NCBI RefSeq assembly: GCF_000688295.1
Contig: NZ_JHZF01000014.1
Span: 62,001 to 126,000 of the forward strand
Direction of reading: 5' to 3'
Length of the DNA: 64,000 nucleotides
DNA from: Pseudooceanicola nanhaiensis DSM 18065
Lineage (GTDB): Bacteria > Pseudomonadota > Alphaproteobacteria > Rhodobacterales > Rhodobacteraceae
The position numbers and the translations under genes were made by a program. The notes beneath the pieces are model-generated. The model searched no databases. It was given only the letters and a program-made list of their open reading frames with translations, and was not told the origin of the DNA. Positions 17,652 to 38,491 of this stretch are shown here, piece after piece. Within the stretch, counting starts at the first letter, position 1; every line of letters starts with the position of its first letter.

Positions 17652-18292
17652 TCACGGCGCGGGACGCCGGGCTCGTCGCCTGCCGCCGCTGCACGCGGGT
17701 CTGGCCGATGGGCACCGAATATTGCGGCCGCTGCGGGCACGAGATCACCTCGCGCCACACAAAGTCGCTGCAGCGGGTGTGGGCGTGGTGGATGGTGGGG
17801 CTGGCCTGCTACGTGCCCGCCAACGTGCTGCCGATGCTGCACACGAGAACGCTGGTGATGGTCGACGAGAGCACCATCATCGGGGGCGCGGCCGAGCTTG
17901 CCCAGCACGGCAACTGGGGTGTCGCCATCGTCATCCTCGTCGCCTCGGTGCTGATTCCGATGGGCAAGTTCGCCGTGATCGCCGCGCTCGCGCTCGGCGT
18001 GCGCCACGGCAGCCAGCTGAGCGAGCTGCGGCGGCAGCAGCTGTTCGAAATCGTGGAATACATCGGCCGCTGGTCGATGATCGACGTCTTCGTCGTGGCC
18101 CTCCTGTCCTCTCTGGTGCAGCTCGGGGCGCTCGCCGCGGTGGCTCCGGGACCGGCAAGCCTTTACTTTGCCTTGTCGGTCATCTTTACCATGCTCTCGG
18201 CACAGGCCTTCGACAGCCGCCTCATATGGGACCCCGACACCACAGTGACGCATGACGAATACCAGGGCGCGCCGGAGCGACGCGCCGAATGA
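17648..18292 (+). CDS. pqiA: Paraquat-inducible protein A family, second subunit
   Basis: A 214-residue PqiA-family protein starting MITARDAGLVACRRCTRVWP, with the CxxC pairs CRRC and CGRC near residues 11-33 and four membrane segments after them. It is the second half of what is a single tandem protein in E. coli. It overlaps the first pqiA by 4 bases and the pqiB gene by 4 bases, so all are translated together. The pair probably forms the inner-membrane part of a lipid-transport complex. Confidence 0.88.
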   Translation: MITARDAGLVACRRCTRVWPMGTEYCGRCGHEITSRHTKSLQRVWAWWMVGLACYVPANVLPMLHTRTLVMVDESTIIGGAAELAQHGNWGVAIVILVASVLIPMGKFAVIAALALGVRHGSQLSELRRQQLFEIVEYIGRWSMIDVFVVALLSSLVQLGALAAVAPGPASLYFALSVIFTMLSAQAFDSRLIWDPDTTVTHDEYQGAPERRAE

Positions 18293-20931: not shown

Positions 20932-20935
20932 GACG

Positions 20936-21499
20936 ATGCGAACGAACCTGATCGGTGCCACCGCGGCCCTCGCCCTTCTCGCCGGATGTGGCGACAACGC
21001 GCTGCGCTACTCGGTGCCCGCGGTGCCGGTGACGCAGGAGCGCGTCGGGATCGCCTACAACAGCGTCGAGGTGCTGGCGGTCTCGCTGCCCAGCTACGCC
21101 GCGGCCGAGGAGATCTACATCCGCGGGGCGGACGGGGCGCTGACCTCGTCCACCGACCTGCTCTGGTCCGACGACCCCTCTCGGGCGGTGACGCTCGAGC
21201 TGACGCGCTACCTGGGCCAGATCACCGGCGCGCGGGTCGCGCCCGAGCCCTGGCCTTTCGCCGAGCGGGCCGCGGCCCGGCTCGATGTCCGGGTCGAGGA
21301 GATGTACGCCGAGCCCGGCCGCTTCGTGATGACCGGCCAGTTCTTCGGCGCGCCCGAGGACGGCGGCCGCGACCGCGCGGGCCTCTTCAGCCTCGCGGCC
21401 CCCATCCCCGAGGGCGGCGGCGCGGCCGCGATCGCCGCGGCACGGGCGCAGGTGATGCGCGATCTCGCGGCGGATATCGCCCGCCGGGCGCTGCGCTGA
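20936..21499 (+). CDS. pqiC: PqiC-like outer-membrane lipoprotein (ABC-type transport auxiliary family)
   Basis: A 187-residue protein with a lipoprotein signal: MRTNLIGATAALALLAGCGD, with the lipobox Cys at residue 18. The mature part fits the PqiC/DUF330 family, which anchors the PqiB tunnel at the outer membrane. It starts 4 bases after pqiB and closes the operon; a hairpin follows. Together the operon encodes a complete PqiABC-type system. Confidence 0.86.
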   Translation: MRTNLIGATAALALLAGCGDNALRYSVPAVPVTQERVGIAYNSVEVLAVSLPSYAAAEEIYIRGADGALTSSTDLLWSDDPSRAVTLELTRYLGQITGARVAPEPWPFAERAAARLDVRVEEMYAEPGRFVMTGQFFGAPEDGGRDRAGLFSLAAPIPEGGGAAAIAAARAQVMRDLAADIARRALR

Positions 21500-21746: not shown

Positions 21747-22982
21747 GTGGACAAGCCGAACCCCAAGAGTTCGAGTTTCGAGGCCTATGCGCGCCGCCGT
21801 TTCAGAATGGCCGGTTCCGCGCTGCTTGAAGGTGGGCACCCCTGGTTTGCCGCCACCGACAAGGTCGCCGAGGAAGCTGCCAAGAAGCCCGGCGGATACG
21901 TCAGCTTTGCACATTACGATTATCTCGGCCTGCTGAAGGACCCCCGCGTCACCGACGCGGCCAAGCAGTCGATCGACGATTTCGGCAGCGGGGCCGGTGC
22001 CTCGCGCCTCGTCGGCGGGGAGCGCTCGGCGCACCGCAAGTTCGAAGAGGACATGGCGGAGTTCCTCGGGGTCGGCGGCGTGCTCGCCATGATCTCGGGC
22101 TACCTGACCAACATGTCCATCATCTCCCATATCCTGGGGCCGCGCGACCTGGTCATCACCGATGACCTCGCGCACAACTCCATCGTCATGGGGGCGAAGG
22201 CGGGCAAATTCGCTTACAAGAAATTCCGCCACAACGACCTCGACCATCTCGAGCACCTGCTCGAGACGGAGCGGTCGAACTACGCCCGCGTCCTGATCGC
22301 GGTCGAGGGACTCTACTCGATGGATGGCGATCTCGCCGACCTGCCCCGGCTGGTCGACATCAAGGATCGCCACGACGCCTGGCTGCTCCTCGACGAGGCG
22401 CATTCCTACGGCGTTCTGGGTGAAACGGGCGCAGGCCTGTGCGAACGCTGCGGGGTCGATCCGGAACGGGTCGAGCTGCAGATCGGCACACTGTCGAAAA
22501 GCTTCGTCTCCTCCGGCGGCTTCATCGCCGCCTCGCGCGAGGTGATCGAATGGCTGCGCTTCACGCTGCCCTGCTTCGTCTACTCGGTGGGCCTCTCGCC
22601 CGCCACGCTGGCGACGGCGCAGACCGCGCTGGACATCCTGAGGGCCGAGCCCGAGCGTGTCCGGCAGCTGCGCCACAACTCCCAGTATTTCCTGAGCAAG
22701 GCCCGCGCGGCCGGGCTGAACACGCATACCGCGCTCGGCGAGGCGGTGATCCCCGTGCTGTTCCAGACGCAGGCGCAGACGCTCGCCGTCTCGCACATCC
22801 TGCTGGAGCAGGGGATCTTCGCGCCGCCGATCATCCACGTCGGCGTACCGAAGGACCTGCCGCGCATCCGGTTCTTCATCTCCGCCGGCCATCAGGAGGC
22901 CGACATCGACCGCGTGGTCGCGGCTCTGGCCGAAGCGGCCGAGATGACGGCCGACCTCGCGGGCAAAGCTGTCGGAACATAA
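21747..22982 (+). CDS. Serine palmitoyltransferase-like alpha-oxoamine synthase
   Basis: A 411-residue PLP enzyme of the alpha-oxoamine synthase family, which condenses an amino acid with an acyl thioester. Motifs are SFAHYDYLGL, DDLAHNSIVMGAK, LLLDEAHSYGVLG and the PLP lysine K251 in TLSKSFVSSGGF. The same fold includes 8-amino-7-oxononanoate synthase, KBL and ALA synthase. I favour serine palmitoyltransferase, the first step of sphingoid-base synthesis, because a 3-ketodihydrosphingosine reductase-like gene lies in the same operon. The start is GTG with GGAGGGA about 6 bases upstream. The next gene starts 4 bases after its stop. Confidence 0.82.
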   Translation: MDKPNPKSSSFEAYARRRFRMAGSALLEGGHPWFAATDKVAEEAAKKPGGYVSFAHYDYLGLLKDPRVTDAAKQSIDDFGSGAGASRLVGGERSAHRKFEEDMAEFLGVGGVLAMISGYLTNMSIISHILGPRDLVITDDLAHNSIVMGAKAGKFAYKKFRHNDLDHLEHLLETERSNYARVLIAVEGLYSMDGDLADLPRLVDIKDRHDAWLLLDEAHSYGVLGETGAGLCERCGVDPERVELQIGTLSKSFVSSGGFIAASREVIEWLRFTLPCFVYSVGLSPATLATAQTALDILRAEPERVRQLRHNSQYFLSKARAAGLNTHTALGEAVIPVLFQTQAQTLAVSHILLEQGIFAPPIIHVGVPKDLPRIRFFISAGHQEADIDRVVAALAEAAEMTADLAGKAVGT

Positions 22983-22986
22983 CCGC

Positions 22987-23607
22987 ATGGCACAGACCCG
23001 AACCGCGACCCCGGCCCCGGTCAGGGGGCTGGTGGCGCTTCTTTTCGCGTTTCTCACCGCCCTGATCCTCGCCGCCCCCGCTTGGGCGGCGCCCCAGCTC
23101 GACCTCGTGTCGCGCGACACCACGGCCGCCCTGCCGGTGATCCGAAAGGACTACCCGGTCCCGAACGACGGCGGGCAGGTCTTCTATATCCAGCGCTCGC
23201 CGAACGCCAACACGGTGGTCTACGGCACCCGCGTCGCAGGTGGCCAGATCGACCCGAAGGCCCCGGTCTCGGCCTATTGGCGGCGGTTCAACACCGGCGG
23301 CGAGGCCAAGGCGCTTGGCGGGCTGGAACGGCGCATGGCCTACGGGGTCAACGCGCAGCCCAATGGCGATGGCACCTACCGGGTGACCTTCAGGGCGCTG
23401 CCCGCGAAATCCATGACCCTGCGGATGGAGGGTGGCCGTCCGGCGCTTTTCATGCCAATGGGCAACGCGGAAGCGCGTTTGATCTATGCCTACCTCGATG
23501 TTGAGGACGGGCTGATCCCGAGCGTGACAGGCCTCAAGATAGTCGGGCGCCTGCCTTCGGGACAATACGTAACTGAAACATATCGAGTGAAGGGCGGAGA
23601 GCTCTAG
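22987..23607 (+). CDS. DUF4833-like secreted protein
   Basis: A 206-residue protein with an N-terminal signal peptide (hydrophobic stretch to about residue 34, cleavage after AWA). The rest resembles DUF4833 proteins: FYIQRSPNANTVVYGTR, SAYWRRFNTGG and a conserved mixed-strand body. Function is unknown. It is embedded between the serine palmitoyltransferase-like and inositol-phosphate synthase genes with gaps of 4 and 2 bases, so a periplasmic role in making, modifying or handling the lipid product is likely. The domain name is from memory of the family and was not checked. Confidence 0.7.
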   Translation: MAQTRTATPAPVRGLVALLFAFLTALILAAPAWAAPQLDLVSRDTTAALPVIRKDYPVPNDGGQVFYIQRSPNANTVVYGTRVAGGQIDPKAPVSAYWRRFNTGGEAKALGGLERRMAYGVNAQPNGDGTYRVTFRALPAKSMTLRMEGGRPALFMPMGNAEARLIYAYLDVEDGLIPSVTGLKIVGRLPSGQYVTETYRVKGGEL

Positions 23608-23609
23608 GA

Positions 23610-24722
23610 ATGACAACAGACAAGAAGGCCCCGATCCGGGTGGCCATCGCCGGGGTCGGGAACTGTGCAAGTTCGCTCGTGCAGGGCGTCAGCTACTGCA
23701 AGCGCATGGGCGACAAGGCCATCGGGGTCAGCTTCCCCGAACTGGGCGGCTACGCCCCGACCGACATCGAATTCGTCGCAGGCTTCGACGTCGATGCCCG
23801 CAAGGTGAACAAGTCGCTGGGCGAGGCCATCATGGCCGAGCCCAACTGCACCGCGATCTTCGAGACCGAGGTGTCCGAGCACACCGCCGTGGTCCGCCGC
23901 GGTCCGGACCTCGACGGCGTGTCGAACTTCATGCGCAACCAGGACCCGCGCCGCGCCTTCCAGGTGTCGCCGGAACCCGCGCTGTCGAAGGACGATGTCG
24001 TCTCGGTCCTGAAGGAGAGCGGCGCCGAGGTGCTGATCATCTTCCTGCCCGTCGGCTCCATCGAGGCCGTCGAGTTCTACGCCCAGTGCGCGCTCGAGGC
24101 GGGTGTCTCGATCGTCAACGGCATCCCGGTCTTCATCGTCTCCAACCCGACCTGGGCCAAGAAGTTCGAGGATGCGGGCATCCCGGTGCTCGGCGACGAC
24201 TTCAAGGCCCAGTTCGGCGCGACGATCATGCACCGCGCGATCACCCAGCTCGCCGACATGCGCGGCGTGCAGATCGACCGGACCTACCAGCTGAACGTCG
24301 GCGGCAACACCGACTTCCTGAACATGATGGACGGCGACCGGCTGGCGATGAAGCGCGAGTCGAAGACCGAAGCCGTTCAGGAAAGCATGAAGGCCCGGCT
24401 CCAGAACAACGACATCCGCGTCGGACCCTCGGATTACGTGCCGTGGCTGAACGACCGCAAGGTGGCCTACATCCGTCTCGAAGGCCGTCTCTTCGGCGGC
24501 GTGCCGACGAGCGTGGAGATGCGCCTGGAAGTCGAGGACAGCCCGAACGCCGCCGCCGAGGCGCTGGCGGCGATCCGCTGCGCCCGCATCGCGCGCGACC
24601 GCGGTCTTGCCGGTCCGGTCAAGGCGGCCTCGGCCTTCATCTTCAAGCACCCGCCCGAGCAGATGGGTGACGAAGAGGCCTATCGCAAGATGATCGAGTT
24701 CGCCGAGAAGGCGGACGGCTGA
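23610..24722 (+). CDS. Inositol-3-phosphate synthase
   Basis: A 370-residue myo-inositol-phosphate synthase, which converts glucose 6-phosphate to inositol 3-phosphate using NAD. The Rossmann motif AGVGNCASSLVQG is near residue 14, and the family stretch RTYQLNVGGNTDFLNMMDGD is near residue 230. It is closest in style to the short actinobacterial/bacterial form rather than the 500-residue eukaryotic enzyme. De novo inositol synthesis is uncommon in Proteobacteria and points to inositol lipids or inositol solutes. It shares one base with the reductase gene that follows. Confidence 0.92.
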   Translation: MTTDKKAPIRVAIAGVGNCASSLVQGVSYCKRMGDKAIGVSFPELGGYAPTDIEFVAGFDVDARKVNKSLGEAIMAEPNCTAIFETEVSEHTAVVRRGPDLDGVSNFMRNQDPRRAFQVSPEPALSKDDVVSVLKESGAEVLIIFLPVGSIEAVEFYAQCALEAGVSIVNGIPVFIVSNPTWAKKFEDAGIPVLGDDFKAQFGATIMHRAITQLADMRGVQIDRTYQLNVGGNTDFLNMMDGDRLAMKRESKTEAVQESMKARLQNNDIRVGPSDYVPWLNDRKVAYIRLEGRLFGGVPTSVEMRLEVEDSPNAAAEALAAIRCARIARDRGLAGPVKAASAFIFKHPPEQMGDEEAYRKMIEFAEKADG

Positions 24723-25534
24723 TGCCAGCGCCCGGTCAGCGCGCCCCGGCCTGGGTATCGGGCGGGTCGAGCGGGATCGGGCTCGAAATCGGGCGGCTTC
24801 TGGCTGCCCAGGGGCGCCCCGTCGTGCTGATGGCACGGAACGGGGCGCGCCTCGAGGCCGCCGCCGCCGACATCCGGTCGGGCGTGAGCGGGGCCGAGGT
24901 GCTCTGCATTCCCGTCGATGTCAGCGACCGTGACGCGGTGGCCGCCGCCGCGGCGCAGGCCGTGGCGGCCCATGGCGCCCCCGGCTGCGTCGTGGCAAGC
25001 GCGGGGATCGTCGAGCCCGGGCTCTTCCTCGAGCAGCCGCTCGAAAGCTTCGAGCGCCAGATGGCGGTCAATTACCACGGCAGCCTCTACCTGCTGCACG
25101 CCGCCGCGCCCTTGATGCGGGACGCGGGCGGCGGCCAGATCGGGCTGATCGCCTCGGCCGCGGCCTTCTTCGGGATCTACGGCTACGCGGCCTATGCGCC
25201 GACGAAATACGCCGTCCGCGCCCTGGCCGAGGTGCTGCGCGTCGAACTGGCGCCCGACAACATCACCGTCACCCTCTGCTATCCGCCGGACACCGACACG
25301 CCGCAGCTGGCCGCCGAAAGGCTGACGAAGCCCGAGGCGACCTCGGTCATCACCGGGGGCGGCGGGCTCTGGCAGCCCGGGGCGGTCGCCGCGCGGCTCG
25401 TCCGGGGGATGGAGAAGGGCCACTTCGCCGTCACGCCGGGCTGGCAGGTGAGCCTGCTGAACCTCATCGCGCCGCTGATCGCCCCGATCCTGCGCTGGCA
25501 CCAGGGCCGCGTGATCCGGACGTTCGCAAAATGA
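24722..25534 (+). CDS. SDR oxidoreductase, 3-ketodihydrosphingosine reductase-like
   Basis: A 270-residue short-chain dehydrogenase. The cofactor loop is GGSSGIG at 14-20, and the catalytic triad residues are S145, Y158 and K162. The segment YPPDTDTP at 187-194 followed by TKPE is characteristic of eukaryotic 3-ketodihydrosphingosine reductases (KDSR/FVT1). The C-terminal 40 residues (VSLLNLIAPLIAPILRW) are hydrophobic, as in KDSR. It would reduce the ketone made by the upstream PLP enzyme to a sphingoid base. It differs from the extended-SDR ceramide reductase CerR described in Caulobacter. It is coupled to both neighbours by overlaps. Confidence 0.82.
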   Translation: MPAPGQRAPAWVSGGSSGIGLEIGRLLAAQGRPVVLMARNGARLEAAAADIRSGVSGAEVLCIPVDVSDRDAVAAAAAQAVAAHGAPGCVVASAGIVEPGLFLEQPLESFERQMAVNYHGSLYLLHAAAPLMRDAGGGQIGLIASAAAFFGIYGYAAYAPTKYAVRALAEVLRVELAPDNITVTLCYPPDTDTPQLAAERLTKPEATSVITGGGGLWQPGAVAARLVRGMEKGHFAVTPGWQVSLLNLIAPLIAPILRWHQGRVIRTFAK

Positions 25535-26412
25535 TCGCCCCGCCGCCGACCCTGGGCGTCGTCGCGGCCGCGCTGGTCGTGCTGGCGCTCGGCTATGCCA
25601 TCGTGGGCGCGATGATGTGGATCCCCGCCACCTCGGCCAGTGCGCGGAAGATCTGGCCGATCCTGAACATCGAGGCGCTGACCGTCGGCGCGGTGCTGGT
25701 GATCTTCGCCTTCGCGCCGGTGCTCATGGTCCCCGCCATGCTCGCCTTCACCCTGCGCGTGGTCTGGGAGGCCGCCTCGGTCCGCCACCGCCCCTCGGGC
25801 GGCGGCCACGCGGTGTTCTGGGCGGGGGCCGCGGGCGCGGTGCTGATCCTCTGCTTCCTGCTGCCCTGGACCGTCGCGGTCGCGGCGCTCGGCCTGTCGT
25901 GGCTGGCCGCCGCCGCCTGGCGCCTGGCCCGGCCCGGGGAACCGGCTGCCGACCTGCTGGTCTTCCCGGTCCTGCCGCTGCTGGCCTTCGCCACCGCCTG
26001 CGCCGGCACCAACCCGGCGATCTTCCTCGCCGCCTGGATCGGGATCGAGACCTTCGACAGCTACGCGCTGCTCGCCGGCAAGGTCTTCGGCAGGCGCAAG
26101 GCCTTCCCCGTCCTCAGCCCCAACAAGACCATCGAGGGCCTCGCGGGCGGCGTCGCCATGCTGGTCCTCACGGTCCTCGTGGCCGCGGCCTTCCTCGACA
26201 ACCTGAGCTACGGCCGGGCGCTGGCCTTCGCGCTGCTGATCGGGGTCTTCACCGTGACCGGCGACCTTGCCGCCTCGCTGATGAAGCGCCGCGCCGGGGT
26301 GAAGGACTTCCCGCCGCTGGTGCCGCACCAGGGCGGCCTTTTCGACATCTTCGACAGCTGGATCGCGACCGGCGGCGCGCTCGCCGTTCTGCTGGCGGTC
26401 TGGGCAGGGTAG
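25531..26412 (+). CDS. CdsA-like phosphatidate cytidylyltransferase
   Basis: A 293-residue polytopic membrane protein with a C-terminal signature SLMKRRAGVKDFPPLVPHQG, close to the CDP-diglyceride synthetase pattern S-x-K-R-x4-KD-x3-P-x-H-GG. The usual D-R after the glycines reads DIFDS. CdsA makes CDP-diacylglycerol from phosphatidic acid and CTP. A second copy in a lipid operon suggests a dedicated supply of an activated lipid for the CDP-alcohol phosphotransferases nearby, or activation of a different lipid phosphate. It starts within the reductase gene's stop. Confidence 0.8.
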   Translation: MIAPPPTLGVVAAALVVLALGYAIVGAMMWIPATSASARKIWPILNIEALTVGAVLVIFAFAPVLMVPAMLAFTLRVVWEAASVRHRPSGGGHAVFWAGAAGAVLILCFLLPWTVAVAALGLSWLAAAAWRLARPGEPAADLLVFPVLPLLAFATACAGTNPAIFLAAWIGIETFDSYALLAGKVFGRRKAFPVLSPNKTIEGLAGGVAMLVLTVLVAAAFLDNLSYGRALAFALLIGVFTVTGDLAASLMKRRAGVKDFPPLVPHQGGLFDIFDSWIATGGALAVLLAVWAG

Positions 26413-26424
26413 GGTGTCCGGGCC

Positions 26425-27558
26425 ATGCGTCCCTATTTCCGCCTGACCCTCCGCCCGATCCTCGCGACCTCGCTCATCATCCTCGCGCTCGTCGAGATCG
26501 TCTTCCTCTCGGAACAGTTCACCGGGCTGATGGACCGCGTCCTCAAGACCGGGGGCACCGGCTGGGACCTCGTGCGGCTGCTGCTCTGGGAGGTGCCCGA
26601 GATCCTGGACCTCGCCCTGCCGGTCGCGCTGCTGGTCGGCGTGCAGAGCGCCGTCGGCCGCGCCCGCACGCAGGGCGAGCTGGTCGTGCTGACCGCCGCG
26701 GGCGCGCCGGTCGGGGGGCTGGTGCGGGGCGTGCTGCTGGTCGGACTGCTGGGCGGGCTGCTCAGCTTCGCCATCGCCGGGATCATCGCGCCCGCCGCGA
26801 GCTATGCCCAGAGGGTCGCGCTGCACGCGCTGACCGTGCAGCACATCCGCGCCCGCATATCGGAGCCGGGCGAGAGCGGGTCGACCTTCCGCGCGCAGGG
26901 CGTCGATTTCGTCGCCACCGGCGCGGATGATGCGAGCCCCTCGCTCATGGTGCGGCGCCCGGCCGACGCCCGGCCGTGGCGCTTCGCCTTCGCCGGGGAA
27001 TGGGAGGTGACGGGGCCCGACGAGGACGGTGAGCGCGGCAACTTCCGGCTGGGGCAGGTGACCGCCTTCGGCGATCTGCCGCGGCTCGACGGCGAGATGA
27101 CCGAGGCGCAGATGAACCGCATGGCCGCCGGTTCGGTCGACGTGGGCTTCGACATGGACGACATCCTGCCCGTGCTCGACCGCACCCCGCGCGAGAACGA
27201 GCGCCCGGTGGTGCCCGCGCTGCAGGCGCTGATGGCGGGCGAGGTGCTGGAAGAGGCGACGAACCCCGAACGCATCGCGCGCATCTGGGCCCGGGCCCTG
27301 CTGGTGCCGGCCGCCGCCCTGCTGGCGCTGATGGCCGTCTGGGGCGGCTCGGTGCGGGGGGTGCGCGCCGCCGCCCTGCCGCTGGCGCTTCTGGCGCTGG
27401 TGGCCTGCGACCTCGTGACGAGGGCATGGCTGGGCGGGATCGCCGCCGGGCCGTCGCTCTGGGCGGCCTCCGGGGTGGTGACGCTGGCGCTGCTCGGGCT
27501 GCCGCTGGCCGCGCTCTGGCGCGCCGGCGAGGCGCTCGTCCGGCCGGGGCGCGGCTGA
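26425..27558 (+). CDS. LptF/LptG-family permease, first subunit
   Basis: A 377-residue protein with three N-terminal membrane segments (about 10-125), a soluble periplasmic middle (about 130-280, jellyroll-like) and three C-terminal segments. This is the LptF/LptG architecture: these subunits extract lipopolysaccharide from the inner membrane with the LptB ATPase. It lies 12 bases after the CdsA-like gene and overlaps the second subunit by one base. No lptB, lptD, lptC or surA is nearby, so it is more likely a dedicated exporter for the lipid made by this operon than the housekeeping LPS pair. Confidence 0.82.
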   Translation: MRPYFRLTLRPILATSLIILALVEIVFLSEQFTGLMDRVLKTGGTGWDLVRLLLWEVPEILDLALPVALLVGVQSAVGRARTQGELVVLTAAGAPVGGLVRGVLLVGLLGGLLSFAIAGIIAPAASYAQRVALHALTVQHIRARISEPGESGSTFRAQGVDFVATGADDASPSLMVRRPADARPWRFAFAGEWEVTGPDEDGERGNFRLGQVTAFGDLPRLDGEMTEAQMNRMAAGSVDVGFDMDDILPVLDRTPRENERPVVPALQALMAGEVLEEATNPERIARIWARALLVPAAALLALMAVWGGSVRGVRAAALPLALLALVACDLVTRAWLGGIAAGPSLWAASGVVTLALLGLPLAALWRAGEALVRPGRG

Positions 27559-28685
27559 TGGCGATGCGGAGCCTCACCGGCCGGGCCATGCGGATGGCGC
27601 TGCGCGAGCATGTCGCGGCCTTCGTGATCGTGCAGATGGTGCTGATCTTCATCGCGCTGATGCTGGATTTCGCGGACAGCTTCGAGTCGATCCGCGCCGC
27701 CGCCGAGGGGCGCAACCTCGTGGCGGTCATCGGGCAGTATACGCTCTACCGCACCGCCGACATCGTCGCGCGGCTGATGCCGGTGGCCGCGCTCCTCGGT
27801 GCCTTCCTGGCCGAGATCCGGCGGCGGGCGCTGCTCGAGACGGTGATCCTTTCGGCCGCCGGGGTCTCGGCCCTGCCGACCATCGCCGCGCTCTGCTGGA
27901 TGGGCGCGGTGACCGGCTGGCTGCAATGGAAGCTGGAACGCGACTGGCGGCCCGCGGCGGTCTTCGCGCAGGTCGAGCTGGGCGCGGGCGATTACGCCGA
28001 ACGCTATGCCGAGGGTCTGACCGACGACCAGCACTGGTTCGTGCGCGAGGATTCCGCGCTGGCCGGACGTGTCCTTGTCGGGCCGCAGCCGGAACTGCGC
28101 GAGGTCAGCTATTTCATCGGCCTGAACGGGGCCGGGTTCGACCGGCTGATCCGGGCCGACACGGTGCGGCCCCTCGGCGGCGGGCAGTGGGAATTCGAGG
28201 ATGCCGAGATCTGGACCTCGACCCCCGACGGCCGCCTGATCGGCCTGCCGGCCCAGACCATGGAGCTGCCGCTCTGGTTCCAGACCAACCGGCTGCGCTA
28301 TCTCAACCCCTCGGCCTATTACCTGCCGCAGGAGGTGCTGCTGACCCGGGCCGAGGCCGATCCCGAGGATCCCTACATGCGCACCACGATCTGGCGGCGC
28401 GGGACGGCATGGCTGCTGCCGGGCCTGTTCTCGATCCTCGGGGCGACGCTGGCGATGACCGGCTTCCGGGGGCGGGTGACACGGGTGCCGATCCTCGTCG
28501 GGATGGCCTTCGGCGGCTACCTCGTGACCCTGTCGCTCAAGATCTTCTGGGCGCTCGGCGAACAGGGCGCGCTGTCGGTGCCGGTGGCGGTGCTGATCCC
28601 GCCGGCGCTGGCGCTGACGATTTCGGCCGTGCTGCAATGGCTGATGCACCGGGAATCCCGGGGACGCCGCCTGCCGCTCGGCTGA
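27558..28685 (+). CDS. LptF/LptG-family permease, second subunit
   Basis: A 375-residue partner of the upstream permease with the same plan: three membrane segments within about the first 120 residues, a periplasmic domain of some 160 residues, and three more segments after residue 285. The C-terminal membrane part (LLPGLFSILGATLAMTGF) resembles LptG. ATG is at 27558, overlapping the stop of the first subunit. Such heterodimers form the membrane core of an ABC-type lipid extractor; the ATPase must come from elsewhere, for example a shared LptB. Confidence 0.82.
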   Translation: MAMRSLTGRAMRMALREHVAAFVIVQMVLIFIALMLDFADSFESIRAAAEGRNLVAVIGQYTLYRTADIVARLMPVAALLGAFLAEIRRRALLETVILSAAGVSALPTIAALCWMGAVTGWLQWKLERDWRPAAVFAQVELGAGDYAERYAEGLTDDQHWFVREDSALAGRVLVGPQPELREVSYFIGLNGAGFDRLIRADTVRPLGGGQWEFEDAEIWTSTPDGRLIGLPAQTMELPLWFQTNRLRYLNPSAYYLPQEVLLTRAEADPEDPYMRTTIWRRGTAWLLPGLFSILGATLAMTGFRGRVTRVPILVGMAFGGYLVTLSLKIFWALGEQGALSVPVAVLIPPALALTISAVLQWLMHRESRGRRLPLG

Positions 28686-28692: not shown

Positions 28693-29448
28693 TCAGATCG
28701 CCTTGCGCCGCGCCGCCTCCACCAGCCCGGCGCTGGCGCGCGGCCAGACATGCTCGCGGGCATGGGCGAGCATCTGTTCGTCGTCCACCTCGGCCCAGGC
28801 GAGATCCGGGATCAGCGGGCAGTGGAAGTCCGTGTCCTGCGCGAAGGCCACGACGCCCGCCTCGTAATCGAGCTTGGGCCGGTCGGCCAGCAGCGCCTCG
28901 GCCGTGCCGCGGAAGGCCGCGACATGCGCCGCGGTGAAGGCGGTGATGCCGACAAGCTCGCCGCGCGGCGCGTCGCTGCGGTGATCCGCCTGTTTCGACA
29001 TGTCCACGAGGTTGCCCGCGGCGTCGGTCCAGACATAGACCTCGTCCCCCGCGCCGGTCGGGCCCGACAGCACCATGCCGGAGCCCGCCGCGATCAGCGG
29101 ATCGAGCGCGCGCGGCTCGTACATGATGTCGGATTCGAGCACCAGCAGCGGCCCGTCGAGCCCCGCGAGCCCGGTCATCATCGACCTGAGGCTGCCCGTC
29201 GTCGCATAATCGGGGTTGTGGATCAGCTCCACGCCCGGCGTGGCCGAGAATTCCTGCTGGTAGAGTTCCGACAGGTGGCCCGTCACGATCCGCACCCGCT
29301 CGACCCCGCGCGCGGCGAGATGCATGACCGAGGCGCGCACCAGCGGCAGCCCGTCGAGGGCGATCAGACCCTTGGGCGTCAGCCGTCCCCGCGCGCCCAT
29401 GCGCACACCAAGACCCGCCGCGACGATCAGCGCCGTAAACTCACCCAT
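28693..29448 (-). CDS. NTP-transferase family nucleotidyltransferase (choline/inositol-phosphate cytidylyltransferase type)
   Basis: A 251-residue nucleotidyltransferase. The N-terminal motif ALIVAAGLGVRMGARG with LTPKGL (residues about 5-28) binds NTP and the phosphate acceptor. Size and the motif LVLESDIMYE resemble LicC-type phosphocholine cytidylyltransferases and the cytidylyltransferase half of inositol-1-phosphate cytidylyltransferases. In this setting it could make CDP-inositol or another CDP-alcohol for the adjacent CDP-alcohol phosphotransferase. It is convergent with the permease operon (7 bases apart) and divergent from the phosphotransferase. Substrate is inferred only. Confidence 0.75.
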   Translation of the reverse strand: MGEFTALIVAAGLGVRMGARGRLTPKGLIALDGLPLVRASVMHLAARGVERVRIVTGHLSELYQQEFSATPGVELIHNPDYATTGSLRSMMTGLAGLDGPLLVLESDIMYEPRALDPLIAAGSGMVLSGPTGAGDEVYVWTDAAGNLVDMSKQADHRSDAPRGELVGITAFTAAHVAAFRGTAEALLADRPKLDYEAGVVAFAQDTDFHCPLIPDLAWAEVDDEQMLAHAREHVWPRASAGLVEAARRKAI

Positions 29449-29559: not shown

Positions 29560-30255
29560 GTGACTTCCCCCGACCATCCCGGCCCGCGGACCCTGGCCCG
29601 CGCCTATTTCGCAAGCTCCAAGTCGGGCGAGGAACTGCGCGGCAACTGGGTGATGTGGGTGCTGCACCGCTGGCCGAGCTTCGTGCTGACGTCCCTGTGC
29701 CTGCGGGCGGGGATCCGGCCCGACCGGGTGACATTGCTGGGCGGGGCGCTGGTCTGGCTGCTGCCGCTGATGGCCTGGCTGCTGCCGCCCGCAGGGGCGG
29801 CCTGGGCGGTCTGCGTGACCGGGTTCGTGGTGATCGTCCTGGATTGCGTCGATGGCGACGTGGCCCGCTGGACGGGCATGACGAGCGCACGGGGCGCGCG
29901 GCTCGACTTCATCGTCGACATGACCTTCTGGGGGCTGCTCTACCTGTCGATCGGGATCATCGCGGCGGGCGGCACCTTCGGCGGCTGGGCCGTGCTGGGC
30001 ATGGCGGCGGGCTGGGCGCGGCTGCTGGCGCGCGTGGTCAACGACAGCATGGGCGGCCATTCGACCGAGGCGGCGCCGGCCCGCTGGACCCCGCTCGCCG
30101 TGGGTGAGGCCGCGGTGGTCGGCCTGTCCGGCGCGATCCCCTTCCTCGCGCTGGCCGCGCCTTCGGCGCCCTGGGTCGTCTGGCTGCTGCTCGGCTACAG
30201 CGCGCTCGATCTGGGCGACGCGCTGCTGCGCCTTCTGAGGTCCGACGCCGCATGA
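29560..30255 (+). CDS. CDP-alcohol phosphatidyltransferase family protein (first copy)
   Basis: A 231-residue integral membrane enzyme. The full family motif is present: D95-x2-D98-G99-x2-A102-R103-x8-G112-x3-D116-x3-D120. Such enzymes transfer a phospho-alcohol or phosphatidyl group between a CDP-activated donor and an alcohol acceptor, as in phosphatidylinositol-phosphate synthase. The start is GTG at 29560. It overlaps the PimA-like glycosyltransferase gene by 4 bases, linking lipid head-group attachment to glycosylation. Confidence 0.88.
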   Translation: MTSPDHPGPRTLARAYFASSKSGEELRGNWVMWVLHRWPSFVLTSLCLRAGIRPDRVTLLGGALVWLLPLMAWLLPPAGAAWAVCVTGFVVIVLDCVDGDVARWTGMTSARGARLDFIVDMTFWGLLYLSIGIIAAGGTFGGWAVLGMAAGWARLLARVVNDSMGGHSTEAAPARWTPLAVGEAAVVGLSGAIPFLALAAPSAPWVVWLLLGYSALDLGDALLRLLRSDAA

Positions 30256-31352
30256 AGATCGTCCACGTCAGCCCCTACCCGATGGCGCGCCCCGGCGGGG
30301 TCCAGAGCAACGTCCGCGACCTCTGCGCCTGGCTCGACCGCTCCGGGCACGAGACGCGCATCGTCTCGCCGGTGAGCCCCGGCGCGGATCTGGCGCCGGG
30401 CGAGATGGCGCTTGGCCGGGCGCGCGAGATGTCGCTGCACGGCACGGGGTTCGAATTTTCGCTCGCCGGGCCTGGCCGCCTGCGCGCCGCGGTGCGCGCG
30501 CTGCGGGACTGGGGGGCCGAGATCGTCCACCTGCACACGCCGTGGACGCCGATGATGCCGTGGCAGCTCTGGCGCCGGCTGGACCTGCCGAGCGTGGCCA
30601 CCTTCCATGCGACCCTGCCCGAGACCGACCGCCCGGGGATCGAGGACCGCTACATCGCGCGCGCCGCGCGGCATTTCCACGCCCGGCTGGACGCCCTCGT
30701 GGTGCCCTCCGTCGCGCCGCTGCGGCAATGGGACCGTCTGGGCGTCACGCCGCTGCCCGAGGTGCTGCCGCCGACCATCGACCTGGCCGACTGGCGGGCG
30801 GGCGACACCGGCGGCATCCGGCGGCCGGGGCCCTTCCGGGTCGCCTACCTGGGCCGGTTCGAGGCGCGCAAGGGCGTCGACGTCCTGCTGAAGGCCTGGG
30901 CGCAGCGCCCGCCCGCGCTGCGCGATGCCGAGCTGGTGCTGGCGGGGCGGGGCGACCTGCCCGGCCCGCTGCCCCAGGGCGCGCGGCTGGTGCAGAGCCC
31001 CGGCCGGTCCGAGGCGATCCGCCTGATCGCCGATGCCGACGTCTCGGTCGCGCCGGCGGGCTACGGCGAGAGCTTCGGCCTTGTCCTGATCGAGGCGATG
31101 GCGGCGGGCACCGTGCCGGTGGCGGCGGCGAATGTCGGCTATTCCACCGTGATGACGGGCGCGGGCAGCGCGCTGCTCTTCCCGCCGGGCGATGCCGCGG
31201 CACTGGCTGCACGGCTGGCCGAACTGGCGACCGATCCCGCGCGGCTGGCCCGGCTGACCGACTGGGCGCGCGGGCATGCCATGGCCTATGACGTGAGCCG
31301 GGTCGGGCCCGAATACGTCGCGCTCTACGAGCGCGTGCTCGGCCGTTCGTAG
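30252..31352 (+). CDS. Glycosyltransferase family 4, PimA-like
   Basis: A 366-residue GT-B glycosyltransferase. The N-terminus MKIVHVSPYPMARPGGVQSN closely matches the PGGVQ start of PimA-type phosphatidylinositol mannosyltransferases, and the donor-binding E-x7-E motif is ESFGLVLIE near residue 272. It would transfer a hexose from a nucleotide sugar to a lipid acceptor on the cytoplasmic face. Coupling to a CDP-alcohol phosphotransferase and proximity to inositol-phosphate synthase suggest a glycosyl-inositol lipid. The last 28 bases overlap the convergent Stealth gene. Confidence 0.85.
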   Translation: MKIVHVSPYPMARPGGVQSNVRDLCAWLDRSGHETRIVSPVSPGADLAPGEMALGRAREMSLHGTGFEFSLAGPGRLRAAVRALRDWGAEIVHLHTPWTPMMPWQLWRRLDLPSVATFHATLPETDRPGIEDRYIARAARHFHARLDALVVPSVAPLRQWDRLGVTPLPEVLPPTIDLADWRAGDTGGIRRPGPFRVAYLGRFEARKGVDVLLKAWAQRPPALRDAELVLAGRGDLPGPLPQGARLVQSPGRSEAIRLIADADVSVAPAGYGESFGLVLIEAMAAGTVPVAAANVGYSTVMTGAGSALLFPPGDAAALAARLAELATDPARLARLTDWARGHAMAYDVSRVGPEYVALYERVLGRS

Positions 31353-32293
31353 GGGGAGGGCTCGGGGAACCGCGCCTCGAGCCAGCGGCGCATCCACGCC
31401 ACCATGCGCGGGTTGGGCCGGTCCCCGAAACTGTCGTTGAAGGTGGCGGTCAGGGGGGCACGGCGCTCCATCCGGCGCATCGTCCAGAGCGTCCACGGCA
31501 TGAAGTTCTCGATCGAGACATAGCCCTCGACTGCCCGGGTCTCTGCCGTGCTGGCGGCCCGCGCCGTCCCCTCTGCCACCGCGTAATGCGGATAGAGCAC
31601 CTCGGGCGGGATGTTGTCGGTGCCCCGGAAGCGGCTGGCGCGGGTGGCGGCGGTCTCTTCCGGGAAGGCGGCGAGCATCGCGGCATATTCCGCCCGGTCG
31701 ATCAGCCGCGGCCCGTGGATCACGTGCCTGCGGGGGGCGGGGCCATAGCTCCGGTCGAGCAGGTCGGCCGTGTTGGCCAGCGCGTGGTTCCAGGGGCTGG
31801 CCTTCGGGCCGAGCCTGCGCGCCACGGGCAGCTTCGCCTGGGTGAAATGCGAGACGCGCCGCCCGTCCCGGTCCTCGAGCGCCTGCATCAGCCCGGGGCG
31901 GAGCAGCACCATGTCGTCCTCGAGGTAGAGGAACCGCGCCCCGAGCCCGGGCAGCAGGTGCAGATGGCTGACGATGGCGAAGGAGTTGAAGGTCGGCAGG
32001 ATCTCCGGCGCCATCACCGCATCGTGGTGGTGCACGGTGATGCCCTCGGCGTCCGGGTCCAGCCACCGGGGGATCTGCGGGCGGCAGGTCAGCAGGTGGA
32101 CATGCCCCAGCTCGGGCAGGTGCCTGAGCGAACGCAGCGAATAGCGCAGCAGGTCGAGGTTGTCCCGCGTGCGGTTCGGGTTGGTGTCGGCGGGCACGTC
32201 CGCGTAGCGCGACAATTGCTCGGCATAGCCGGGAAAGGTGTCGTCCACCCAGGTGTAGACCACGTCGATCTTGCTGGTGTTCTGAGCCGTCAT
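31325..32293 (-). CDS. Stealth family protein (capsular polysaccharide phosphotransferase type)
   Basis: A 322-residue protein with Stealth conserved regions: IDVVYTWVDD near residue 9 (CR1), a segment NRTRDNLDLLRYSLRSL near residue 39 (CR2), FLYLEDDMVLLRPGL near residue 116 (CR3) and a C-terminal CR4-like end. Stealth proteins transfer hexose-1-phosphate onto sugar chains, making phosphodiester-linked polysaccharides. The start was set at ATG 32293. It is divergent from the kinase gene and overlaps the glycosyltransferase gene tail to tail. Confidence 0.85.
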   Translation of the reverse strand: MTAQNTSKIDVVYTWVDDTFPGYAEQLSRYADVPADTNPNRTRDNLDLLRYSLRSLRHLPELGHVHLLTCRPQIPRWLDPDAEGITVHHHDAVMAPEILPTFNSFAIVSHLHLLPGLGARFLYLEDDMVLLRPGLMQALEDRDGRRVSHFTQAKLPVARRLGPKASPWNHALANTADLLDRSYGPAPRRHVIHGPRLIDRAEYAAMLAAFPEETAATRASRFRGTDNIPPEVLYPHYAVAEGTARAASTAETRAVEGYVSIENFMPWTLWTMRRMERRAPLTATFNDSFGDRPNPRMVAWMRRWLEARFPEPSPYERPSTRS

Positions 32294-32420
32294 GGCCAAC
32301 TCGCATAGCCGTCCCGGCGGCGCTTGGCGAGAGGGGAATGCCGGGTTGCCGCGCCCGGAACCCCATGCCACAAGAACCGCGCCCGGCGCAGACCGGGCGC
32401 GGGACGGGACAGATGCACAG

Positions 32421-33965
32421 ATGAGCCGGGGAACGCTGATCATCGCGGCCGATTTCGGGACCTCGAGCGTGAAGCTCGGGGTGGTCGCGGAAGGGATGAA
32501 GCTCCTGTCGCGGCGGATCGAGAGCTACCCGGTGCAGCTGGGATCCGGCGGGGTCGCCGAACAGCGGCCCGAGGAATGGTGGGCGGCCCTCGCCCGCGGG
32601 CTGTCGCACATCGAGGCGGACATGCCCGGCACGCTGTCCCGGGCCGGGGCGCTGGTCTTCTCGGCCCAGATGGCGGGCGTGACCTGCGTGGACCGCGACG
32701 GCGTGCCGCTCCGGCCCGCGATCATCTGGCAGGACATCCGCGCCGCCCGCCTCGCCCGCGGGCTGATCGGCGGCTTCCCCGAGGCCCTGGGCTACAACCT
32801 GCCGCGGCTGGCGAAGTGGATCCGGGTGGCCAACGGTGCCCCGGCCAAGAACGGCATGGATCCGATCGCCAAGATGCATTTCCTGATGCGGGAAGAGCCC
32901 GAGACATGGGCCCGCACCTATCGCACGCTCGACGTGAAGGACTGGCTCGTGCACCGCGCCACCGGGCGTTTCGTGACGACCGGCGACAGCGCGAACCTGA
33001 CGTGGCTCATGGACACGCGCCCCGGCCGGGAGGGCTGGTCCGAAACGCTGTCCGAGATGACCGGAACGCCGCTCGACAAGCTGCCCGAGATCGTCGACGG
33101 CTGCGAGGTGGTCGGAGAGCTCACCCCGCGCGCGGCGGCCGAACTGGGCCTGCCCCCGGACCTCGCGGTGGTGGCGGGGGGCGGCGACGTGACGGCGACC
33201 GCGCTCGGCTCGGGCGCGGTGGAGGACGGCGCGTTGCACCTGTGCATCTCGACCTCGGCCTGGGTCAGCGGCTTCTTCCCGAAGCGCGTGATCTCGGTCC
33301 CGCATTCCTATGCCACCGTCGCCAGCGCCGCAGGGTTCCGGCCGCTCCTGATCGCGACGCAGGAAAGCGCGGGCTCGGCGCTGGACTGGGTGGCGCGTCT
33401 GATGGGCTATGGCGACACGCCGGACCTCGCCGCGGCCTACGGAGAGCTTGGCACCTGGCGCGACGACGACCCCTTCCTGCTGCCGTGGTTCGCGGGCGAG
33501 CGGGTGCCGGTCGACAACGATGCGCTGCGGGGCACGATCTACGGCCTGTCGATCGACCATGACCGCCAGGCGGTCGCCCGCGCGGCGATCGAGGGCGTGG
33601 CGCTGAACCTTCGCTGGGCCTACGATTCCGTGGCGAAGAAGCGGGGTGTGCAGCTCGACGGTCCGCTGCCGCTGGTCGGCGGCGGCGCGGCGAACCCCGA
33701 GCTGGCGCAGACCGTGGCCGACGCGCTGAACCGCGAGGTGACCACCGGCGAGACCCGGTTCGCGGGCGTGCTGGGCACCGCCGCGCTGGCCGCGCCCTAC
33801 ATGGGCTGGGACCGCGACGTCTGGCACGCGGCCGCGCGGCTCGGCAATCGCGTGCAGACGCGCTATGCCCCGCTTCCGGGACGGCGCGAGATGCTGGAAC
33901 GGCGCTACGCGCGGCTCAGGACATTGCGGAAGCGGATGGTGAAAAGCTACGGGAGCGGGGCATGA
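32421..33965 (+). CDS. FGGY-family carbohydrate kinase
   Basis: A 514-residue kinase. The N-terminal phosphate loop ADFGTSSVKLGVV, the ADP-binding motif GGGGDVTATALGSG near residue 253 and the C-terminal signature GGGAANPELAQTVADALN near 417 fit the FGGY family (xylulose, glycerol or ribulose kinases). It shares 4 bases with a CDP-alcohol phosphotransferase gene, so it may phosphorylate the polyol that becomes the lipid head group rather than a sugar for catabolism. The start at 32421 is the ATG nearest the phosphate loop; longer frames lack support. The substrate is unknown. Confidence 0.85.
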   Translation: MSRGTLIIAADFGTSSVKLGVVAEGMKLLSRRIESYPVQLGSGGVAEQRPEEWWAALARGLSHIEADMPGTLSRAGALVFSAQMAGVTCVDRDGVPLRPAIIWQDIRAARLARGLIGGFPEALGYNLPRLAKWIRVANGAPAKNGMDPIAKMHFLMREEPETWARTYRTLDVKDWLVHRATGRFVTTGDSANLTWLMDTRPGREGWSETLSEMTGTPLDKLPEIVDGCEVVGELTPRAAAELGLPPDLAVVAGGGDVTATALGSGAVEDGALHLCISTSAWVSGFFPKRVISVPHSYATVASAAGFRPLLIATQESAGSALDWVARLMGYGDTPDLAAAYGELGTWRDDDPFLLPWFAGERVPVDNDALRGTIYGLSIDHDRQAVARAAIEGVALNLRWAYDSVAKKRGVQLDGPLPLVGGGAANPELAQTVADALNREVTTGETRFAGVLGTAALAAPYMGWDRDVWHAAARLGNRVQTRYAPLPGRREMLERRYARLRTLRKRMVKSYGSGA

Positions 33966-34585
33966 TCGACGGTCTCATAAAGCATGTGCTGGACCCGCTT
34001 TGGGAAAAGGCCTCGACCCCGCTGGTCAAGGCACGGATGACGCCGAACCAGGTGACGCTGGCCGGGCTGGGGCTGATCTGCCTCGGCGCGGGGCTCTATC
34101 TCTGGCACCGCAGCGACCTGGTCTTCGGGCTGTGGCTGGCGGTCTCCTTCGCCTTCGACGCGCTCGACGGGGCGGTGGCGCGGCGGCGCGACATGCGCTC
34201 GAAGGCGGGCGGCTACCTCGATGCCATGGTGGATCGCTATCAGGAGCTGGTCGTGCTGGCCGCCATCGCCCATGTCCACGACCTCTGGGCGCTTGCCCTG
34301 CTGAGCTTCGCGGGCAGCGTCATCACCTCCTACGCCAAGGCCCGCACCGCGCTCGAGGCCGAGATCTCGAACGACGGCTGGCCCGAGCTCTTCGAGCGGC
34401 TCGAGCGGATCATTTACACCTGCGTGCTGCTCGTGGTCGCGGGGCTGGTGCCGCAGGCGTGGGTGCCGAACGTGATGGCGGCGGGGCTGCTGATCTTCGC
34501 GGGGCTGACGAACCTCACCGCCCTTCAGCGGGGCTGGCGGGCTTTCTCGATGCTGCGCCGGATCGACCGTGGGCCCGGAGGATGA
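33962..34585 (+). CDS. CDP-alcohol phosphatidyltransferase family protein (second copy)
   Basis: A 207-residue membrane enzyme with the complete motif D66-x2-D69-G70-x2-A73-R74-x8-G83-x3-D87-x3-D91. About six membrane segments follow the usual pattern. It is translationally coupled to the FGGY kinase (ATGA overlap), which suggests that the kinase product or a derivative is its substrate. Its last 71 bases overlap the 3' end of the convergent membrane-protein gene. A second such enzyme within 4 kb points to a multi-step head-group pathway. Confidence 0.88.
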   Translation: MIDGLIKHVLDPLWEKASTPLVKARMTPNQVTLAGLGLICLGAGLYLWHRSDLVFGLWLAVSFAFDALDGAVARRRDMRSKAGGYLDAMVDRYQELVVLAAIAHVHDLWALALLSFAGSVITSYAKARTALEAEISNDGWPELFERLERIIYTCVLLVVAGLVPQAWVPNVMAAGLLIFAGLTNLTALQRGWRAFSMLRRIDRGPGG

Positions 34586-35345
34586 GCACGAATTCCACCG
34601 CGTGCAGCATGAGATAGGCCATCAGCGCGGCGATCACCACGACCTCGGTCGAGACGTAGACGGCGTAGAGCGTGGCCGAGTCCCAGACGTCCTTGGCCAC
34701 GAAGAGCCCGAGGTAGAACACCGTCAACAGAAGCGCGCAGACCGCGAACCACGTCCGCATCCGCGTGGCGACCGGATGGATCAGCCCGAGCGCGCGGCGC
34801 GTGCCGACGGCCTCGCACTGGCGCAGCACCTCGACGCAGACGAAGATCGAGATGATCTGCCCGATGGCGGCCGAGAAGAACAGCAGGTAGCTGCCGATCA
34901 TGTGCAGGTCGTTGTCGATGGCGAGCGTGTAGACCGACTGCATGACCATCCCGATCGAGACCGGCAGCTGGATCAGGAAGATCCCCAGCCCGCGCCACGC
35001 CAGCTGGCGGCGCTCGGGCTCGGGCAGCGGCAGGGCCGCCGCGGTCCGGATGTAGAGCAGCGAGATGATGCCGGCCCCGATGGCGAGCAGCACCGCGCAG
35101 ACCGACAGGGCAAGGCCCATGTCGGCGCCCAGCGGGACATCGGCCATGGCACGGCTGATCGTCGGCGGTTTGCGCAGGCTGTCTTCGGGAAAGGCCGCCA
35201 TGTATTCCCAGCGGATGCGGACGATCCAGTAATCGATATAGGCCGGCACGGCGAAGGTGCAGAACAGGCCGAGCGCGGCGAGCGGTGCGGACATCCGCGC
35301 GGGCGGAGGGCTGTCGGGCCGCGCCCTGTCGTCGTTGTCGGTCAT
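34515..35345 (-). CDS. Uncharacterised six-segment membrane protein, possibly Frag1/DRAM/Sfk1-like
   Basis: A 276-residue polytopic protein with about six membrane segments. A conserved-looking first loop contains IRWEYMAAFPEDSLRKPPTI, and the middle has LAIDNDLHMIGSYLLFFSAA. The pattern weakly resembles the Frag1/DRAM/Sfk1 family, whose members in eukaryotes are linked to phosphoinositide or GPI lipid handling; this is a low-confidence resemblance. It converges on and overlaps the second CDP-alcohol phosphotransferase gene by 71 bases. Confidence 0.6.
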   Translation of the reverse strand: MTDNDDRARPDSPPPARMSAPLAALGLFCTFAVPAYIDYWIVRIRWEYMAAFPEDSLRKPPTISRAMADVPLGADMGLALSVCAVLLAIGAGIISLLYIRTAAALPLPEPERRQLAWRGLGIFLIQLPVSIGMVMQSVYTLAIDNDLHMIGSYLLFFSAAIGQIISIFVCVEVLRQCEAVGTRRALGLIHPVATRMRTWFAVCALLLTVFYLGLFVAKDVWDSATLYAVYVSTEVVVIAALMAYLMLHAVEFVLILRAHGRSGAASRKPASPAEGR

Positions 35346-36826: not shown

Positions 36827-38491
36827 ATGCTGAATCTCGTCTCTTTCGTCTGGAACGGCGTGCCCGGTCCCAAGTACCGCGTGATCGCCATGTCGATCAT
36901 CGTGGGCCTCGCCAACGGCGCGATGCTCTCGGCGATCAACGGGGCGATCAGCGCGCGGACGGACGGGACCTTCGACTGGACCTACCCGGCGCTCTTCCTC
37001 GCGGCCGTGCTGGTCTTCTTCGTCGGCGGCTACTTCGCGATGTACCGCGCCACCGAGATGGCGCAGCGGTTCACCCAGACCCTGCGCGAGACGACGATCC
37101 GCAAGGTGCAGGGCAGCGCGCTGCGCAATGTCGAGCGGTACGGGCGCGGCGAGATCTACACCCACATCACGCGCGATTCATGGACCCTGGGCGGGATCTG
37201 GACCAAGCTCGTCACCGCGTTCCAGGCGATGCTGGTGGTGTCCTTCTGCCTCGTCTACCTCGTCTGGCTCTCGCCCGTGGTCTTCGCGCTGACGGCGGTG
37301 GCGATCGCGGTCGGCATCTGGGTCTACTTCCTGCAGGAGAAATTCGCCAAGTCGCACCTCGTCGCGGCGCGGCGCCACGAGGTGCGCCTGTTCGGCGGCG
37401 TGGGCGACATGCTGGACGGGTTCAAGGAGCTGAAGCTCTCGCAGCCGATGGCCGAGGGGCTGATCCAGGAGCTCGACTGGAACAACGACCAGGCCCGCCG
37501 GCATTTCGTGCGGGCGGAGTTCCTGTTCTACGCCACCTCCATCATCTCGAAGGCGATGCTCTTCCTCCTGCTGGGGGTGATCGCCTTCGTGCCCGCGGAA
37601 TACATCGGCACGCGCTCGGCGCAGACCTTCCAGACGCTGGCCCTGCTGCTCTACCTCGTGCCCCAGCTCGAGCAGATGGTGAACATCGTCTCGCCCATGA
37701 TGCAGGCCGAGGTCGCCAAGCAGCGGCTCGACAGCCTCGACACGGCGCTGGCGCGCGAGGACGTGGGCCGGATCGAGGGCGTGGGCTTCGGCGAGGGGCT
37801 GAGGCTCAAGGGCGTGGAGCTCGACTACACCGACCCCGAGCTCGGCACGACCTTCACCCTCGGGCCCATCGACTTCGCGGCCCGCCCGGGCGAGATCGTC
37901 TTCCTCGTGGGCGGCAACGGGTCGGGCAAGACGACGCTGATGAAGGTGCTGGCCGGGCTCTATCCGCCCGACCGTGGCGAGGTCAGGCTGGGCGACACGG
38001 TGCTCGACCTGCGGTCGATCGGGTCCTGGCGCGACCAGATCGCCTCGGTCTTCCACGACTTCCACCTCTTCGACAAGGCGTTCGGCCACGACCCGGAGCG
38101 CGACTTCGACCACATCCGGGACGAGATCGCGCGCGTCGGGCTCGCCGACAAGGTCACGCTGAACGAGGACGGTTCCTTCTCGACCGTCCGGCTCTCCACC
38201 GGGCAGCGCAAGCGGCTCGCGCTGGTGCTGGCGCGGGCGCAGAAGAAGCCGCTGCTGCTGCTGGACGAATTCGGCGCGGAGCAGGACCCCGAGTTCCGCG
38301 CGTTCTTCTACACCGATTACCTCGATGCGCTCCGGGCCGAAGGGATCACCGTGATCGCCGTCAGCCACGACGACCGCTACTTCGGCACCTGCGACCGGCT
38401 GGTGAAGCTGGACCTCGGCCGCATCGTCCACGACGGGCCGCCCGACGTGGGCGCGGACGGGCTGTCGCTGCGCCCCGCCCGCGAGGCCTGA
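36827..38491 (+). CDS. Fused ABC transporter of the SyrD/YojI (cyclic-peptide exporter) family
   Basis: A 554-residue protein with six N-terminal membrane segments and a C-terminal ATPase domain. Walker A is GGNGSGKTT near residue 364, the signature is LSTGQRKRLAL near 463 and Walker B is LLLLDEFGAEQD near 482. The signature LSTGQ and overall length fit the SyrD/PvdE/YojI exporters of peptides or siderophores. No peptide-synthesis gene is nearby, so the cargo is unknown; in this neighbourhood a glycolipid or surface product is possible. Confidence 0.85.
   Translation: MLNLVSFVWNGVPGPKYRVIAMSIIVGLANGAMLSAINGAISARTDGTFDWTYPALFLAAVLVFFVGGYFAMYRATEMAQRFTQTLRETTIRKVQGSALRNVERYGRGEIYTHITRDSWTLGGIWTKLVTAFQAMLVVSFCLVYLVWLSPVVFALTAVAIAVGIWVYFLQEKFAKSHLVAARRHEVRLFGGVGDMLDGFKELKLSQPMAEGLIQELDWNNDQARRHFVRAEFLFYATSIISKAMLFLLLGVIAFVPAEYIGTRSAQTFQTLALLLYLVPQLEQMVNIVSPMMQAEVAKQRLDSLDTALAREDVGRIEGVGFGEGLRLKGVELDYTDPELGTTFTLGPIDFAARPGEIVFLVGGNGSGKTTLMKVLAGLYPPDRGEVRLGDTVLDLRSIGSWRDQIASVFHDFHLFDKAFGHDPERDFDHIRDEIARVGLADKVTLNEDGSFSTVRLSTGQRKRLALVLARAQKKPLLLLDEFGAEQDPEFRAFFYTDYLDALRAEGITVIAVSHDDRYFGTCDRLVKLDLGRIVHDGPPDVGADGLSLRPAREA

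Follow-up and report, generated by a model that had tools for sequence, protein, structure and literature searches.

A second LptF/LptG-type pair in a lipid gene cluster

It is an open problem how bacteria deliver their sphingolipids and other non-LPS lipids to the outer membrane; according to a 2024 paper, neither a flippase nor a transporter had yet been identified (PMC11087976). Within the window, i.e. the whole stretch of 64,000 nucleotides from Pseudooceanicola nanhaiensis DSM 18065 analyzed here, two adjacent genes for LptF- and LptG-like permeases (LptF2 and LptG2) lie among genes of lipid synthesis (Table 1), raising the question of whether they serve LPS or the lipid of their own cluster. 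A sequence-only reading of this locus had favored the latter, proposing a dedicated extractor that perhaps uses the shared LptB ATPase.

Table 1. Genes of the lipid cluster, in window coordinates
Feature	Position	Strand	Size, family matches and remarks
AOS-family (alpha-oxoamine synthase; SPT/KBL/BioF class) PLP enzyme	21747..22982	+	Pfam/NCBIfam; first cluster gene
DUF4833 protein	22987..23607	+	PF16117; N-terminal signal-like segment
Inositol-3-phosphate synthase Ino1, mycobacterial type	23610..24722	+	PF01658, TIGR03450
SDR	24722..25534	+	PF00106; KDSR-like by position and pairing with AOS
CdsA-like cytidylyltransferase, divergent	25531..26412	+	PF01148, 118.6 bits
LptF2	26425..27558	+	377 aa; LptF-like permease, 3 TM - periplasmic - 3 TM
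LptG2	27558..28685	+	375 aa; LptG-like permease
MobA-like NTP transferase	28693..29448	-	PF12804; only in some relatives
CDP-alcohol phosphotransferase A	29560..30255	+	PF01066; only in some relatives
GT4-family glycosyltransferase	30252..31352	+	PF00534
Stealth-family sugar-phosphotransferase	31325..32293	-	PF11380; optional
FGGY-family kinase	32418..33965	+	PF00370/PF02782
CDP-alcohol phosphotransferase B, phosphatidylinositol-phosphate (PIP)-synthase-like	33962..34585	+	NF040950/NF045883/NF052561, all below cut-off
Frag1/DRAM/Sfk1-family membrane protein	34515..35345	-	PF10277; kept at cluster end
Fused ABC exporter (cyclic-peptide-exporter class), candidate lipid flippase	36827..38491	+	TIGR01194, 307.9 bits, cut-off 286.2

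Profile matches and predicted structure place both LptF2 and LptG2 in the LptF/LptG superfamily (PF03739). Against a Pfam gathering score of 27.9 for LptF_LptG, LptF2 scored 75.2 bits and LptG2 90.8 bits, and AF2 models built from ten homologues gave each permease two sets of three TM segments on either side of a beta-rich periplasmic domain of the jellyroll type, with a short helix on the cytoplasmic side between TM2 and TM3. The pLDDT was 86.5 for LptG2 and 76.2 for LptF2, with low values in the periplasmic/jellyroll part of the latter. When either model was compared with the PDB by Foldseek, the top matches were all LptG/LptF chains of LptB2FG complexes, the best match of LptG2 being LptG (E 3.5e-12). 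The AF2 models bear out the 3 TM - periplasmic domain - 3 TM plan previously read from the sequence for both subunits. The gene order is the usual F-G, and the stop of LptF2 overlaps the start of LptG2 by 1 base (TGATG).

Relation to the housekeeping Lpt machinery

The genome containing the window (G000; 4.66 Mb, 99.9% complete) encodes four PF03739 proteins in two pairs, and the window pair is thus not its only lptFG. The housekeeping lptF-lptG on contig C11 is followed directly by lptD, surA and rsmA, bearing out the expectation of a separate lptFG near lptD; of the neighbors predicted for it, lptD and surA were in place, but no pdxA was seen between surA and rsmA. The window pair itself has no genomic link to LptD, and no plasmid-borne copies of it were found. 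The top NCBIfam models for its two members are LptF (TIGR04407) and LptG (TIGR04408), but the scores of 67.0 and 70.9 bits fall short of the LPS-export equivalog cut-offs of 230 and 240, which the C11 pair passes with 253.9 and 328.8 bits, respectively. Among the genomes tested, LptF/G proteins number four in all 10 that carry the cluster and two in all 6 that do not.

These scores bear on the notion that the second pair is a backup to the housekeeping pair, acting on LPS or a variant of it. Its family and fold are indeed those of the LPS exporter, and the sole LptA/LptC bridge would be available to take such cargo; however, 67 and 71 bits vs. 254 and 329 for the housekeeping proteins leave it far under the LPS-export cut-offs, and we consider this backup role quite unlikely.

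Of the other Lpt components, LptA, LptB and LptC are each encoded once in G000, the count for LptB being of proteins above cut-off, and the three genes are adjacent on contig C13. We found no second LptC or LptA (hence no LptC2) and no second LptD in G000, and neither an NBD-only subunit nor an LptB in the lipid cluster. As LptB is single and the cluster encodes no NBD-only subunit of its own, the simplest reading is that LptF2/LptG2 would be powered by the shared LptB. The glutamate of the cytoplasmic coupling helix through which LptF and LptG contact LptB (E84 and E88 in E. coli) corresponds to E85 in LptF2 and, in the aligned LptG2, to E94; this position is glutamate in 12/12 LptF2 proteins and in 11 LptG2 proteins, with one aspartate. 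A lysine of LptG (position 34 in E. coli) was also tried as a discriminator and set aside, the genome's own housekeeping LptG being likewise without it (by eye).

Gene content and predicted product of the cluster

Family matches confirmed all the neighbors named in the sequence-only reading, namely the CdsA-like, KDSR-like and Ino1 genes, the CdsA-like enzyme, at 58.5 bits, staying under the cut-off of 385 for the CdsA equivalog. The accompanying claim of coupled translation stood for Ino1/SDR, SDR/CdsA and LptF2/LptG2, which overlap by 1-4 bases, but not for CdsA and LptF2, which are separated by a 12-base gap. A promoter-like site (TTGACG-16-TATGAT) is located ~90 bases upstream of AOS. Toward the other end of the cluster, the Frag1/DRAM/Sfk1 protein belongs to a family that in eukaryotes touches GPI and phosphoinositide lipids, and the fused ABC exporter matched the MsbA model at 118 bits, below cut-off.

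Genes for inositol lipid synthesis are present, comprising the inositol phosphate synthase (Ino1 vs. PDB 1gr0, E 3.4e-112) and the PIP-synthase-like CDP-alcohol phosphotransferase B, which resembles the PIP synthase 6h53 (E 2.6e-9) while scoring below cut-off with PIP-synthase models. As for the hydrophobic part, the PDB relatives of AOS include KBL/AONS-type enzymes and bacterial serine palmitoyltransferases (3a2b, E 2.8e-59) at similar scores. A search for a GNAT-like ceramide synthase (bCerS), with the CerS-like protein of the alphaproteobacterial genome G370 as query, gave no match in G000; the protein was likewise undetected in 3 of 4 cluster-positive relatives tested and found in G256, and also in G311. 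Since the ceramide synthase known from clusters of other proteobacteria was undetected in G000, the cluster may make something other than a ceramide. Judging from these genes, the product is predicted to be an inositol-phosphate lipid that possibly contains a sphingoid base.

We also considered that AOS and SDR act as RkpG/RkpH-like enzymes in making a lipid that anchors a capsule or polysaccharide, with LptF2G2 exporting a glycolipid and not a free phospho-sphingolipid. In line with this, the next-closest AOS proteins of the order (41-47% identity) lie beside ABC-2 capsule-type exporters, one of them beside a type-I PKS, and the cluster has a GT4 enzyme plus, in some genomes, the Stealth sugar-phosphotransferase. 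On the other hand, it comprises neither a PKS nor a capsule exporter, and Ino1 together with the PIP-synthase-like enzyme indicates an inositol phospholipid head, making an anchor lipid an unlikely product in our judgment.

The AOS paralogues at 41-47% identity reside in the Rhodobacteraceae loci L150-L153. Those of L150 and L151 adjoin the ABC-2 capsule-type exporters, L151 also carrying the type-I PKS (2482 aa), and from this gene content the two may represent another uncharacterized lipid or capsule-anchor locus in Rhodobacteraceae.

Co-occurrence of the pair with the cluster

In the order Rhodobacterales, LptG2 is present in 11/292 genomes. Two independent queries each recovered the identical 11/292: the PIP-synthase-like protein, and AOS with a threshold of >=60% identity, the latter with a clear gap to 5 others at 41-47%. 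Neighborhoods were retrieved for 10 LptG2 genomes, and in 9 of these AOS through the ABC exporter form one block, from which some optional genes are missing and whose flanks are not shared. In G087, LptFG (101-103 kb), the FGGY/PIP-synthase-like genes (~220 kb) and AOS (283 kb) are on one contig but spread over 180 kb, yet all parts of the cluster have been kept.

An alignment-based scan of named genomes, where a single-protein query gave none, yielded 26 loci, mostly from Shimia and in addition from Oceanicola sp. 22II-s10i (72% identity), Thiosulfatihalobacter and other Rhodobacteraceae; several genomes are common to this set and to the ten neighborhoods. LptF2, LptG2, DUF4833, Ino1 and CdsA are kept in 26/26 loci and AOS in 24/26. 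As the arrangement recurs in 26/26 relatives, it is not due to chance. The strict tie across genomes (the same 11/292; 26/26 loci) supports the earlier suggestion that the pair is dedicated to the lipid cluster, and its occurrence only where the cluster occurs speaks further against an LPS backup. This co-occurrence is phylogenetically narrow, covering 4 genera: 8 of the 11 LptG2 genomes belong to one genus, and the independent sample amounts to ~4 genera.

The DUF4833 protein, with its signal-like N terminus, is likewise found in 26/26 loci and, on these features, could be the missing periplasmic partner of the pair. It showed no profile similarity to the genome's own LptA or LptC by hhalign, and the idea that it is a missing LptC or LptA was set aside. 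Searches of the open-licence literature for DUF4833, and for Shimia with phosphatidylinositol, returned nothing.

Origin of the pair

In a tree of 74 LptF/G proteins, the two sort with their namesakes, LptF2 on the LptF side and LptG2 on the LptG side, and the cluster set of each is a clade with support of 100. When the two proteins were concatenated, the cluster pairs were placed outside 20 housekeeping alphaproteobacterial pairs (100/100), a position that again argues against an LPS backup. A recent duplication of the Rhodobacterales housekeeping pair was rejected on the concatenated pair (AU p 0.00076) but not by the single-gene trees (AU 0.37 for LptF and 0.19 for LptG).

Second pairs near ceramide-type genes were also found in two other alphaproteobacterial genomes, G311 and G370. 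Both pairs have a fatty-acid hydroxylase as neighbor, joined in G311 by an AOS, an acyl carrier protein and an NTP transferase and in G370 by a GNAT-like protein; these pairs served in the trees as proxies for the Caulobacter type. The window clade lies on the same side as these proxies with respect to the housekeeping pairs, with no supported join.

Two further observations came from this survey. Three alphaproteobacterial genomes, G368, G301 and G321 (loci L124, L133 and L137), have a single LptFG pair that groups with the sphingolipid-cluster pairs and not with housekeeping ones; they may be LPS-poor, sphingolipid-rich lineages. In G345, a complete single-contig alphaproteobacterial genome of 5.4 Mb, no LptF/LptG-family protein was found.

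A model for the pair and its relation to known systems

We surmise that a second ABC extractor of the Lpt type, reserved for the lipid of the cluster, has LptF2 and LptG2 as its transmembrane dimer. AOS and SDR would generate a long-chain amino-alcohol (sphingoid-type) base, to which the Ino1, CdsA-like and PIP-synthase-like enzymes would add an inositol-phosphate head, with the glycosyltransferase and kinase decorating this head. The fused ABC exporter would then flip the lipid, whereupon LptF2G2, driven by the cell's only LptB, would lift it out of the inner membrane and pass it to the single LptC-LptA-LptD bridge or to another acceptor, e.g. the DUF4833 protein. Overall, we think it probable that the pair, with the shared LptB, serves as an extractor devoted to a lipid that bears inositol and is possibly sphingoid. 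The dedication and family of this extractor are well supported, with cargo and destination predicted: it is the substrate, the direction, the use of LptB and the outer-membrane destination that we infer.

Against this model, the lack of a second LptC, LptA or LptD leaves a dedicated periplasmic path unaccounted for. The same lack of a dedicated partner would fit a role of LptF2G2 within the inner membrane, where it might flip or retain the lipid or regulate the enzymes while feeding no Lpt bridge. However, the cluster already has a flippase candidate in its own ABC exporter, and the jellyroll, which in LptFG hands the lipid to LptC, has been kept; such a role therefore strikes us as very unlikely.

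Compared with the LptB2FG extractor of LPS, the proposed extractor pair shares 1) the fold; 2) the 3+3 TM plan with jellyroll; 3) the coupling glutamate; and 4) the organization as an adjacent gene pair, but differs in being part of a lipid cluster and not at lptD, in scoring below the equivalog cut-offs and in forming a distinct clade. A closer precedent is found in Caulobacter, where LptC2/F2/G2 (CC_1168, CC_1156, CC_1155), encoded in a sphingolipid cluster, have been proposed, without test, to carry phosphosphingolipids to the outer membrane, with no second LptB reported (PMC11324152). Both have, within a sphingoid-lipid cluster, a second LptFG pair accompanied by an ABC flippase candidate. 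In contrast to the Caulobacter type, the window cluster is without LptC2 and without a detectable ceramide synthase and instead has Ino1 and the PIP-synthase-like enzyme, and its pair forms its own clade beside the G370/G311 proxies, which stand in for the Caulobacter sequences. Given this precedent, the extractor idea is not wholly new; the window pair represents a lineage of its own, lacking LptC2 as well as any detectable ceramide synthase.

Inositol-lipid clusters have been characterized in Bacteroides (BT_1522-1526 and a B. vulgatus-type alternative; PMC9246714). The window cluster shares with them an inositol phosphate synthase, a CDP-alcohol phosphotransferase (its match to the PIPSynBT1523 model being below cut-off) and an optional NTP transferase, but shows no IPC synthase or PIP phosphatase and adds AOS, SDR, the CdsA-like enzyme and the LptFG pair. 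No published account of the window cluster was found in the open-licence literature.

More tentatively, and with our doubts slightly outweighing our confidence, we postulate a third, separately diverged lineage of Lpt-type extractors, one that would use the same LptB as the LPS machine and whose cargo would be an inositol-headed sphingoid lipid undescribed in Rhodobacterales. If so, one ATPase serves two lipid-specific permease pairs. The combination of one LptB and one LptC with two permease pairs raises the question of whether substrate choice resides in LptFG alone, with ATPase and bridge held in common, and Shimia strains in which the second pair is dispensable would make this question approachable without lethal loss of LPS.

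Finally, directly upstream of the AOS cluster (17019-21499) lies a PqiABC-like MCE lipid-transport operon. Absent from the Shimia-type loci, this operon also precedes the cluster in Oceanicola sp. 22II-s10i (L064).
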